From the NCBI GenBank assembly GCA_013334755.1, contig JAAXWX010000006.1:1-64000 (forward strand): a stretch of DNA of 64,000 nucleotides, in the 5' to 3' direction. Under the pieces are notes generated by a model. It saw nothing but the letters and a program-made list of their open reading frames with translations, was not told where the DNA came from and made no database searches. The translations under genes were made by a program, and so were the position numbers. Each line of letters starts with the position of its first letter. Within the stretch, counting starts at the first letter, position 1. Of this stretch, positions 7,825 through 61,976 are shown in pieces. Origin of the DNA: Chlorobiaceae bacterium. GTDB lineage: Bacteria; Bacteroidota; Chlorobiia; Chlorobiales; Chlorobiaceae.

Positions 7825-7958
7825 GTATCCATCATCAGTGTTAGCGGGTTATACGGCATACATCAACCAAAAAATTTTAACAAACAGGTCAAACCGTGAA
7901 GTCTTATAAAAAAATCAACATATTTCAAGCCGGTTTGCCGAAGTGTGGACGTCGACGG

Positions 7959-8486
7959 TTAATTCTTGTACAATTCTTTCACCTGGAACAAAATGTACCA
8001 GCCAATAATCGTTCCGATGATTCCACCGATAAGACCATTGAAAGAAAGAATAGTGCCAATCAAACTGACTATGCTTGCATAAAAAAGTAATGTCCAGGCA
8101 CTTTTGGAACGTTTGAATAATCCCGGAACAGCAACAATTTCCATGACAAACGTAATCACCGAAAAGACGAGCCCGACAGTTGCAGCAAAGCCCCATCCAA
8201 ATCCGTACGGGTAACCACCCATCATAGCAAATGGAGAAAGAATGGCTGTAAGACCCAAAGCAGCAAAAATAATGGGCAACACCATAACCGCAAAAATAAT
8301 AACCAGATAAGGTGAAACTTTAACAATAAACTCCTTGACTTCTATCGGCAGGGTAAATGGTGCTTTATTCACCATGTATTCATCAAGTATTGCCTCAAGC
8401 TGAGACAATATTCCCTTGACATCTGACTTTACCTGAGCCTTTTGCTCAGAGCCTTTGTTTTCCTCCGGGGGGGTATTTTCTGACAT
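7959..8486 (-). CDS. Membrane protein of unknown function
   Basis: ORF with several hydrophobic segments. Confidence 0.55.
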   Translation of the reverse strand: MSENTPPEENKGSEQKAQVKSDVKGILSQLEAILDEYMVNKAPFTLPIEVKEFIVKVSPYLVIIFAVMVLPIIFAALGLTAILSPFAMMGGYPYGFGWGFAATVGLVFSVITFVMEIVAVPGLFKRSKSAWTLLFYASIVSLIGTILSFNGLIGGIIGTIIGWYILFQVKELYKN

Positions 8487-8608
8487 AAGCTTTTGCTTTT
8501 AAAATTAAATGATGCCACCCTGCAGCAGGTAGCGGGGTATTTTTTTCATGTTAGCAAAATTTCGCTGCAAGCAGCGAAGAATTAAACCTTTAGAAAAACA
8601 AACAGGCC

Positions 8609-9265
8609 CTACCACTCGGTCGAGTACAGACCAATAATATCCTTATAGGCAACTGCCGCAGCACAGGCGGTAACGGGAATGCTGACCAGCAGGCCCACGC
8701 CAAGGGCAAGTCCACCAAGAAGGTTGAGAACAAAAAGGACAAAGGCAAAACCAAAAAATGCAAACCAGTTTTTGGTAATAATCATGCGGCTTGTCTCCAT
8801 AGCCTGCCAGAACTCCATACGGTAATCAATAATAAAATAGGTAGTAAACATGTATGCTACTGCAAGGTAGATACCAGGAATGATCAGCAGCACAAAACCG
8901 ATGCCGACTAAAAAACCGCCTGCCAGAGCTGCAAGAAAAAGGGGAAGAAAATAGTTAAAACCCTTGAAAAAATCAGCAAACTGTAACTGCTGCCCGTTCA
9001 ACAATCTGAAAGCGGCAATACCATATCCGGCGTAGAATGAAGCGGCAACCGCAGAGAAAATAAATGAGCCTGAAACAGCCAGTTTCGAGCTTACGGCAGA
9101 GGCTACGAAAATAATAAGGGTAAAACCAACAAACTCACCTATATGCTCCTTGAACATCTCCCATCCCTGCTGTATATAGTTCTTCACATTGAGCGTGCAT
9201 GGAGCATTGAGATGCCTGTCGAACAACTGAGGATCAACTTTGACCCCGAAATCAAAAGCAGCCAT
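8609..9265 (-). CDS. Multi-pass membrane protein; start re-assigned to MAAFDFGVKV
   Basis: Hydrophobic repeats including FVLLIIPGIYLAVAYMFTTYFIIDY, which resembles the glycerophosphoryl diester phosphodiesterase membrane-domain type. Confidence 0.55.
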   Translation of the reverse strand: MAAFDFGVKVDPQLFDRHLNAPCTLNVKNYIQQGWEMFKEHIGEFVGFTLIIFVASAVSSKLAVSGSFIFSAVAASFYAGYGIAAFRLLNGQQLQFADFFKGFNYFLPLFLAALAGGFLVGIGFVLLIIPGIYLAVAYMFTTYFIIDYRMEFWQAMETSRMIITKNWFAFFGFAFVLFVLNLLGGLALGVGLLVSIPVTACAAAVAYKDIIGLYSTEW

Positions 9266-57316: not shown

Positions 57317-58321
57317 ATGATAAAGATTCTCTGTTTTCACAACGCAAGCCACCGTGCCAGTTACCGTTATAGAGTCGGACAGTTCCTCCCTTACTGGACG
57401 CATTATGATATTGATATGCATACCTGCTGTATTTCAGGAAAACACTACATCAACGTCCTTCGATTCCTCTTTTCATTTCACCAGTACGACTATATTCTGC
57501 TGCAAAAGAAAATAGTGCCAAAGATACTCATCAAGATCATGACAAGCCACTCGAAACTTATCTATGACTTCGATGATGCGCTATACACAAGAGAGAGCCG
57601 GGAATTAAAACAAAAAAAACCGCTTTCTGACAGTACAATCAATAAGCTGAAGTACATCCTGAAAAAATCATCTCTTGTTTTTGCCGGGAGCACCGACCTT
57701 GTTAATTATTCTAAAACAGTAAATGACCATGTTCACCTGATACCTACAGCTCTCGGCAAACAGATTTCTGAACTGGCTCTCCCTCCGGAATCCGACCACG
57801 TAACAATTGGCTGGATCGGTAATAATGTAAATCTGTTTTATCTCTCCATTATTGATGATGCTACAGTTTATTTACAACAAAAACATCCCAATGTCAGATT
57901 TTCCTTGCTGTGCGGAATCCCACCTAATAAGCTTAAAACGCATTGGCATTTTACTGAATGGTCATCCCGGGAAGAAAAAACATGGCTTCAATCCATTGAT
58001 ATCGGAATCATGCCGCTGACTGACGACATGTGGAGCAGAGGTAAATGTGCTTTCAAACTTCTGCAATACATGGCTTATGGAAAACCGGTTGTAGCCTCCG
58101 ACGTGGGAGCCAACAAAACAACAGTCCATCATTCCGTAAATGGTTTTCTGGCAAGCACAACCGAAGAGTGGATTTCTGTATTGGAGCAACTTGTTCTTGA
58201 CAGACAGATGCGGATCAATATGGGAAGGGAGAGCCTGAAGATCTTTACAGAAACATTTGAACGAAGCCGCATTCAACAGAAAATGGCCGATATTCTGCAC
58301 GAATTCCATAATTTATTATAA
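57317..58321 (+). CDS. Glycosyltransferase (group 1 type)
   Basis: LIYDFDDALYTRES; C-terminal GKCAFKLLQYMAYGKPVVASDVGANKTTVHHSVNGFLAST. Confidence 0.85.
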   Translation: MIKILCFHNASHRASYRYRVGQFLPYWTHYDIDMHTCCISGKHYINVLRFLFSFHQYDYILLQKKIVPKILIKIMTSHSKLIYDFDDALYTRESRELKQKKPLSDSTINKLKYILKKSSLVFAGSTDLVNYSKTVNDHVHLIPTALGKQISELALPPESDHVTIGWIGNNVNLFYLSIIDDATVYLQQKHPNVRFSLLCGIPPNKLKTHWHFTEWSSREEKTWLQSIDIGIMPLTDDMWSRGKCAFKLLQYMAYGKPVVASDVGANKTTVHHSVNGFLASTTEEWISVLEQLVLDRQMRINMGRESLKIFTETFERSRIQQKMADILHEFHNLL

Positions 58322-59818: not shown

Positions 59819-60155
59819 TCACAAAAGAAAAAAACAAAAATCGACTCATGATCATAGAACAATGACTTTGCCTGTTTTAAAGACAAAAGCACTGAGCATT
59901 CTCTTTACAGACCTTCCCGGAAACAATTCAATACCATCTTTAACTATTTTTATATTAAATAAATAATGAATTCAGATCCGTTCCGGTTCCTGAAATAATT
60001 ATTGAGAAAAATACCATAAAAATAACCTGAAAACACCCGGTAACAGAGTAAATAAATAGTCACGGCACTTTGAAAACTGTCCGACCCGGTTTTCTGATAT
60101 AATAATCAAGCGACAGTTTGCCTCTTTGACACATCTTTTGCTGAATAAAAAACAA

Positions 60156-60174
60156 CTGTTGCATTGTACAACAG
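60156..60174. promoter_or_regulatory. Dyad CTGTTG-N7-CAACAG, candidate activator site
   Basis: Inverted repeat about 120-125 nt upstream of the candidate sigma-54 promoter. Confidence 0.3.
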
Positions 60175-60285
60175 CTCAATAACACTCATTCACCTCAGGA
60201 TTTTTTTTAGCAAAAGAAAATAACGCCAGGCATAACTTATTCTTTAAATAGCACTTATATAATAATGCGCGGAATATTTCACTGT

Positions 60286-60302
60286 TTGGCACGTTTTTTG
60301 AC
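60286..60302 (+). promoter_or_regulatory. Candidate sigma-54 (-24/-12) promoter
   Basis: TTGGCACG-TTTT-TTGA: TGGCAC-N5-TTGA, 10 nt between GG and the -12 G as in the consensus; one mismatch (TTGA for TTGC). Confidence 0.55.
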
Positions 60303-60357
60303 TAATTATCTTCAGAAAACGAAAAACATTTACTCAAACAATAAAGAAAACAAAGCC

Positions 60358-60984
60358 ATGAATACCATCAGCAAAATAAAAGCCCTTATTATCGGAGCAG
60401 CAATCATCGCTTCAGCTCCTGTTGCAGCACAAGCAGTAGTCATAGCTCCTCCAAGCGGTGCATCCACGAAAGGAAGCGCAAAAGTAGAAGTCACAGTACC
60501 TGAGTTCATTATCCTTCATTACTACTCGTCTCTCTCGCTGAACTTCGCAACACCGGAAAGCGAAATCGTTAATGAAGGTTCGAACGCATTGAATGTTACC
60601 TGGGAAGGCAGAACGGACGGCAGTGGACTTGCTCAGGGAAGCTTGAAAGAATCAGCGCTTGAACTGGACGGCGGTGAAACCACTGTGCACATTCCGAATG
60701 TCTGGGCAGTAAGGGGATTCGCCCAAAATGGAAAAGCAAAAATATCAATTGAAATCCCTAACGAAGGTGGCAAGCTGGTGAACGGAACATCGGAAATCGT
60801 CCTTTCAAACCTTAAAATCACGAGTGAGCACGGCACAGCAGCATCTGTAGATGTTCCTTTGAACGGCATAACAAAGAGCAATGCAACGGTAGGCGGGATT
60901 GACATGGACCTCAATTTCGACAAAACGTCACTTTCCGGCACCCATACCGGCGGACAGTACACCATCATTGCTTCGACGCTCTAA
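60358..60984 (+). CDS. Secreted beta-rich protein, pilin/DUF4402-like appearance, function unknown
   Basis: Signal peptide (IIGAAIIASAPVAAQA); SGTHTGGQYTIIASTL C-terminus. Start chosen at MNTISK because the promoter lies inside the longer ORF. Confidence 0.6.
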   Translation: MNTISKIKALIIGAAIIASAPVAAQAVVIAPPSGASTKGSAKVEVTVPEFIILHYYSSLSLNFATPESEIVNEGSNALNVTWEGRTDGSGLAQGSLKESALELDGGETTVHIPNVWAVRGFAQNGKAKISIEIPNEGGKLVNGTSEIVLSNLKITSEHGTAASVDVPLNGITKSNATVGGIDMDLNFDKTSLSGTHTGGQYTIIASTL

Positions 60985-61000
60985 AGAACATCTTCAGTTA

Positions 61001-61042
61001 AAAAAATCCGGGACTCTCTTGACAGGAGTCCCGGATTTTTTT
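61001..61042 (+). terminator. Strong Rho-independent terminator (could serve both strands)
   Basis: AAAAAATCCGGGACTC-TCTTGACAG-GAGTCCCGGATTTTTTT. Confidence 0.9.
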
Positions 61043-61067: not shown

Positions 61068-61976
61068 TTACGACTTCCGTTCTGTTAGCCCCTTAAATGT
61101 CGTCCCAATATCGAGCAGATCAGCAATATTTGCTGCCGGGTCAATGAGAGGCTTGATAAGCGGCGAGGCACAGGTCATGAGTGTGGTAACTCCCGGTCCG
61201 TGGCCGGCTTCAAGACAGTCGCTGTGCACAACAATACCGATCGTAACCGCACCCTTACGGTATGCTCTGCCGTAACGGTTGTCATGATCCATCAAGGCAA
61301 CAAAATCGCCAAGACGGATCTTGTCGAGTCCATACTCTCTGACGGTTTCTGCATCACTCGTCATGATATCGTAGTCCCCTTTTGCCACATGAGCAGAACC
61401 AATGCCCGATCCCATGCAGACCGCAGGAACTACAGTTGTAACCGGCACTTCAAGTACGCCGTCCTCACGCTCCCGGATATTCATACCCTTTAGCAGGGAT
61501 GGATCGAGGTTGAAAAGAGTGATTTCAGGGTAATCCGTGAGTTTCAGCCCCTGCCCTTTACCCCTGATGATGACGGTATCACTGTAGAGCAGCTTTTCCT
61601 TGACATCGCGCTCGAAATCGACAATTACATGCTCTGATCCTCCGTGATGACCGATCACACGACCTACGGCACCTTTTGCCTCACCGGTAGCGATAGTGGC
61701 CAGGTTGCCTGTGCATGAGTATATCTGCAAACCGACGTTTGGATGCTCGAAAGGTTTTTGCGTATCGGCGGTGCAGCTTACCCCGGGTTCAATATGATCA
61801 CCTTGCCAACCGAAAGCCGGATCACCAACCTGAACGTTCAGGGTAATCCCCCCGATTGATGGAAGAAGAAATGGTTTGCCTTGATGGTCAACCTCCCAGT
61901 TACCTCTCGTTCTCGGCTGTCCCGGCTGGCATTGCAGCAGAAACTCTACAAGATATTGTTCATTTGTGTGAAGCAT
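61068..61976 (-). CDS. DUF4438-like protein
   Basis: ORF with [52 protein letters not shown]. Confidence 0.65.

Follow-up and report, generated by a model that had tools for sequence, protein, structure and literature searches.

The closest described counterparts of the system reported here are the archaic and alternative chaperone-usher pili (Csu, CupE, CFA/I, and ECP), in which small secreted beta subunits, a periplasmic PapD-like chaperone, and a large outer-membrane usher are encoded in one locus, with several subunit paralogues. Archaic systems are given for Proteobacteria, Cyanobacteria, and Deinococcus-Thermus (PMC4654587, PMC10104325), with Chlorobi not among them. Green sulfur bacteria also carry surface pili of another kind, the Tad pili of Prosthecochloris, which follow a different assembly pathway and in whose description ushers are not mentioned (PMC7762298). 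Our literature search, with subscription papers and supplementary files outside its range, retrieved no chaperone-usher system described for Chlorobi, and the novelty of the present one is therefore provisional.

The DNA analyzed in this study (the window, 64,000 nucleotides) lies on contig C40 of a 2.1-Mb Chlorobiaceae genome, and its matches are Chlorobiaceae MAGs. Together with genes on contig C65 of the same genome, the gene under study (Table 1) resembles the Csu, CupE, CFA/I, and ECP systems in gene content, in the number of subunit paralogues, and in fold matches to CfaB and CsuA/B, while the usher shares its fold with the FimD and PapC ushers of type 1 and P pili (E values of 1e-12 to 1e-5). 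It differs from the former in that neither the subunits nor the usher match a Pfam pilin or usher model, the usher ends in a CarboxypepD_reg-like domain, and the predicted promoters are of the sigma-54 type; it differs from the latter in showing about 10 to 14% identity over the alignment and no sequence-profile match.

We consider the following account likely to hold as a whole. The window gene would encode a secreted subunit with an incomplete Ig fold, part of a chaperone-usher pilus in green sulfur bacteria. Once exported by Sec, the subunit would have its fold completed by the PapD-like chaperone encoded on C65, and the FimD-like usher of the same contig would thread subunits, the orphan one included, into a fibre via donor-strand exchange. 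Sigma-54 RNA polymerase would transcribe the gene from TGGCACG-N4-TTGA upon activation from a palindromic site about 130 to 165 nt upstream of this box, most likely by C94, an activator with the same palindrome before its own gene; C94 would probably control the Chlorobi-1 small RNA as well.

Table 1. Coordinates and properties of the features discussed (positions refer to the window unless a contig is given)
Feature	Position	Strand	Properties
Possible second, weak site TGACACA-TC-TTTTGCT	60127..60142	+	5.2 bits; putative
Proposed activator site AAAAACAACTGTTGCA	60148..60163	+	centre 131 nt before box; 11.8 bits
Dyad CTGTTG-N7-CAACAG	60156..60174	+	overlaps AAAAACAACTGTTGCA; 0.01 expected per window
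Predicted sigma-54 -24/-12 promoter TGGCACGTTTTTTGA	60287..60301	+	expected start near 60313; conserved upstream of family
Orphan chaperone-usher pilus subunit gene	60358..60984	+	208 aa; signal peptide ~1-26; candidate N-terminal donor strand ~37-47 (G39..V43-V45-V47)
Intrinsic terminator	61000..61042	+	18-bp stem, 7-nt loop
DUF4438 protein gene	61068..61976	-	conserved neighbour marking orthologous locus; outside pilus system
PapD-like chaperone	C65:2391-3236		PapD_N 7e-5, above Pfam cut-off
FimD-like usher	C65:1-2375		frame reaches past end of stretch read
C94 orphan response-regulator activator	G000:C94:2996-4441		receiver - AAA - Fis-type HTH

Subunit family and chaperone-usher machinery

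Neither Pfam nor NCBIfam gave a match above cut-off for the window protein, and when PDB sequences were searched by profile, starting from the subunit and the usher, no pilin or usher was retrieved, only CopC and CarboxypepD-like domains; a fold search was needed. The PDB fold matches of the subunit model were mostly chaperone-usher pilins at weak E values (0.01 to 0.1), including the CFA/I chaperone-tip complex, FimG, PapE, CfaB, FimA, and CsuA/B. The candidate donor strand is an unpaired alternating segment in this model, in which residues 66 to 104 are of low confidence, and the N terminus, MNTISKIKALIIGAAIIASAPVAAQA, looks by eye like a typical signal peptide. DUF4402 (PF14352) weakly matched 3 of 31 subunits (best 0.005) as well as the second subunit type (0.02); every one of these matches fell below the curated cut-off, and the domain was not assigned.

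Four further family members reside on C65, two of them identical (54% identity to the window protein) and the others at 50 and 41%. They lie upstream of the chaperone and usher genes in a row that also contains a second subunit type, the PapD-like chaperone (281 aa), and the usher-sized protein. PapD_N matches 11 of the 15 chaperone family members, the best at 8e-8. Pfam usher models did not match the usher; for its 869-aa homologue in G001, the top 16 Foldseek matches were all FimD or PapC (best 1e-12), obtained with a low-confidence model (pLDDT 57) that was used for fold search only. The same-genome paralogues in a chaperone-usher locus and the pilin fold matches support the initial annotation in describing the product as pilin-like. 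Its remark that no chaperone or usher gene is adjacent is true at the window locus, but the machine is encoded elsewhere in the genome.

A C65-like gene arrangement was found in at least eight other genomes. At L017, L067, and L068, the subunit, second subunit, chaperone, and usher genes form a compact operon with a box ahead of the subunit gene, and L016 is alike except for a split usher frame. Among 121 relatives searched, 21 possess the subunit, and all 21 possess the chaperone. G034, G047, and G058 contain a second, more distant chaperone-usher locus (L061, 7137-7736; L060, 6509-7111), whose subunits are about 28 to 32% identical and show no sigma-54 box in those read. We also noticed that the subunit gene of L055 in G031 (7951-8640, minus strand) is frameshifted near its 3′ end, with the matching end in another frame, and that the two identical tandem copies on C65 (L049, 4444-6056) share the same promoter sequence and lie near a run of N, suggesting either a recent duplication or an assembly artefact.

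Predicted promoter, upstream palindrome, and candidate activator

A TGGCAC-N5-TTGA box with strict -24/-12 spacing had been proposed ahead of the ATG, and it is present as TGGCACGTTTTTTGA, 71 to 57 nt ahead of the ATG at 60358. It has GG at -24 and the 10-nt spacing, and GA at -12, where the sigma-54 criterion is GC. Since the base after TTG in 33 family boxes is most often A (A 17, T 9, C 6, G 1), TTGA is the usual form in the subunit family. A relaxed box, [TC]GGC[ACG][CT][GA]-N4-TTG within 200 nt of the start, lies upstream of 33 of the 51 family members versus 10 of 326 control genes (p of order 1e-25), and the strict box TGGCACG-N4-TTG upstream of 23 of 51 versus 3 of 326; family upstreams share ancestry, and family-based p values are therefore generous. 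Most members lacking a box fall into either of two paralogue groups at the chaperone-usher locus, the one farthest from the chaperone gene or the one next to it.

Genome-wide, the pattern TGGCACGNNNNTTGH gave nine matches versus five for a reversed control. The nifH promoter is among them and serves well as a positive control; also included are the window gene, the two identical C65 paralogues, and two Chlorobi-1 copies. Matches on C17, C73, and C85, which lie within housekeeping genes, were attributed to chance. The presence of rpoN and sigma-54 activators, named in the initial annotation as a check, was confirmed: rpoN is on contig C46, and the genome encodes five full NtrC-type activators.

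From 30 non-redundant family upstreams, a palindromic 16-mer was learnt, with the consensus TGACACA-RY-TGTGTCA and a total score of 358 bits versus 240 to 259 in eight shuffled sets. Most subunit promoters have a strong copy, and in the majority of good matches its centre is 126 to 168 nt upstream of the box. When the window was excluded from training, the window copy scored 10.5 bits, a value reached by 9 of 301 control upstreams (3%); this copy is suggestive of a site rather than strong evidence for one. The possible weak site lies 21 nt, or two helical turns, upstream of it. The dyad originally read as an enhancer does exist and overlaps the family palindrome, but its 6-7-6 form was ruled out as a conserved enhancer, as orthologues carry the TGACACA-RY-TGTGTCA palindrome instead. 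In G007, G014, and G026, the subunit upstreams contain mostly GTCTCA / TGAGAC repeats in its place.

C94 has no adjacent kinase gene in the stretch read. Its gene is preceded by the palindrome TGAAACAATTGTGTCG (19.4 bits), and palindromes of 16.4 to 19.5 bits (control 95th percentile, 9.6) precede five of nine other close C94 orthologues. C94-type proteins form two groups, of 66 to 78% and 51 to 58% identity; the palindrome is strong before the gene in 6 of the 10 members of the first and weak or absent in the second. Within the genus, a C94-type activator occurs in 19/19 subunit genomes versus 13/46 others (p = 2.8e-8, shared ancestry ignored); G068 has a subunit and no C94-type match. Judged by these patterns, C94 is most likely the activator of the subunit genes.

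Alternatively, the gene could encode a chaperone-usher subunit activated by NifA or another NtrC-type protein, the palindrome belonging to a second regulator. The existence of five activators, the sharing of the box with nifH, and the weakness of the window palindrome would all accommodate this reading. It is opposed by the distribution of the palindrome, which is lacking before nifH, the NifA control (0.6 bits), and which among the five activators of the host precedes only C94 in the stretches read (for L003, the intergenic side of its response regulator). As for co-occurrence, L003 showed no association with the subunit (p = 0.83), whereas NifA, L004, and L006 are near-universal and so uninformative. 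NifA itself was judged unlikely, given its near-universality and the lack of the palindrome at nifH, and we regard this alternative as possible, if on balance doubtful, and retain C94 as the preferred activator.

The orphan gene and its neighbourhood

In a maximum-likelihood tree, the window gene groups with L020, L021, and L056 (support 97/96), and all four adjoin a DUF4438 gene. As an orphan copy of the subunit, it is of long standing. In G007, G014, and G026, a different family branch (L063, L047, and L032) is found in this neighbourhood. Downstream, the very strong terminator that had been predicted was borne out as a hairpin of -26.8 kcal/mol (z -7). Elsewhere in the window, a group 1 glycosyltransferase gene (57317-58321) lies on the plus strand amid minus-strand genes.

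An orphan of this kind might have retained its promoter but lost its place in the pilus, now acting by itself as a secreted protein of the cell surface or periplasm. The gene does lie apart from the pilus machine, among unrelated neighbours, and loop 66-104 is variable; yet the protein retains the subunit core residues G39, L53, Y55, Y56, W116, and G120, three orthologues in the 97/96 clade share its locus, and every genome of that clade has the chaperone, all of which make such a change of role improbable and favor a pilus subunit.

The box pattern has a single match within the window, which alone is not significant because 0.18 chance matches are expected per window. At the window locus, each of the four orthologues carries the box, at 71, 95, 95, and 88 nt before the start. 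That it is a chance match in a gene served by an ordinary promoter is very hard to believe, for although a match of this kind turned up in 18 of 100 shuffles and the genome-wide count is nine against five for the reversed control, the family enrichment and the four orthologues speak against it. Conservation in orthologues, the test set by the initial annotation, thus supports its sigma-54 reading, and the window gene appears to be transcribed from such a promoter.

Chlorobi-1 RNA and subunit start sites

The Chlorobi-1 RNA motif (RF01696) is already known (Weinberg et al. 2010, PMC2864571), and the main text of that paper makes no mention of sigma factors or a shared activator site. We found a TGGC[AG][CT]-type box about a dozen nucleotides before the first model position of 25 Chlorobi-1 copies. 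Of 20 first copies, 7 have a palindrome scoring above the 95th percentile of the controls, e.g., TGAGACAACTGTGTCA (L083) and TGAAACAACTGTCTCA (L084), and other copies have half-site words only (TGTCTCA / TGAGACA). Chlorobi-1 and C94-type activators co-occur (15/16 versus 4/27, p = 3.5e-7, shared ancestry ignored), and in G035, the one such genus genome seen, a Chlorobi-1 RNA without a box is accompanied by no C94-type activator. In the host genome, two tandem copies (L071, 1501-1620 and 1751-1870; G000:C20:5911-6280) have sigma-54 boxes and intrinsic terminators, with a long palindrome, TTGTCTCAAATTG..CAATTTGAGACAA, upstream of the first.

A GGGGG run is present in the stem-loop of Chlorobi-1. 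Of 46 subunit genes, 21 have a CCCC in the 30 nt preceding the start (controls, 21/337), the window gene having none, and C-runs complementary to the GGGGG loop are found directly 5′ of subunit start codons, e.g., at L050 9350 (+), L056 7299 (-), L055 7711 (-), and L049 3988 (-). From such sequence matches we infer any sRNA-pilin link, and the pairing itself is a lead only. One sigma-54 regulon under a single orphan response regulator might co-produce the divergent chaperone-usher pilus and Chlorobi-1, whose GGGGG loop would pair with C-runs at many subunit starts and tune their relative amounts, a proposal that we put forward tentatively and consider rather unlikely.

Taken together, the above results suggest that a photosynthetic phylum possesses a chaperone-usher pathway, with ushers and pilins too divergent for standard family models, and name a likely activator of the pilus subunit genes. 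Since Chlorobi-1 is preceded by a promoter of the type found before these genes, and many of its copies by the shared upstream site too, that RNA gains a testable role and a candidate regulon. If true, pairing between its GGGGG loop and the C-runs would explain the function of Chlorobi-1.
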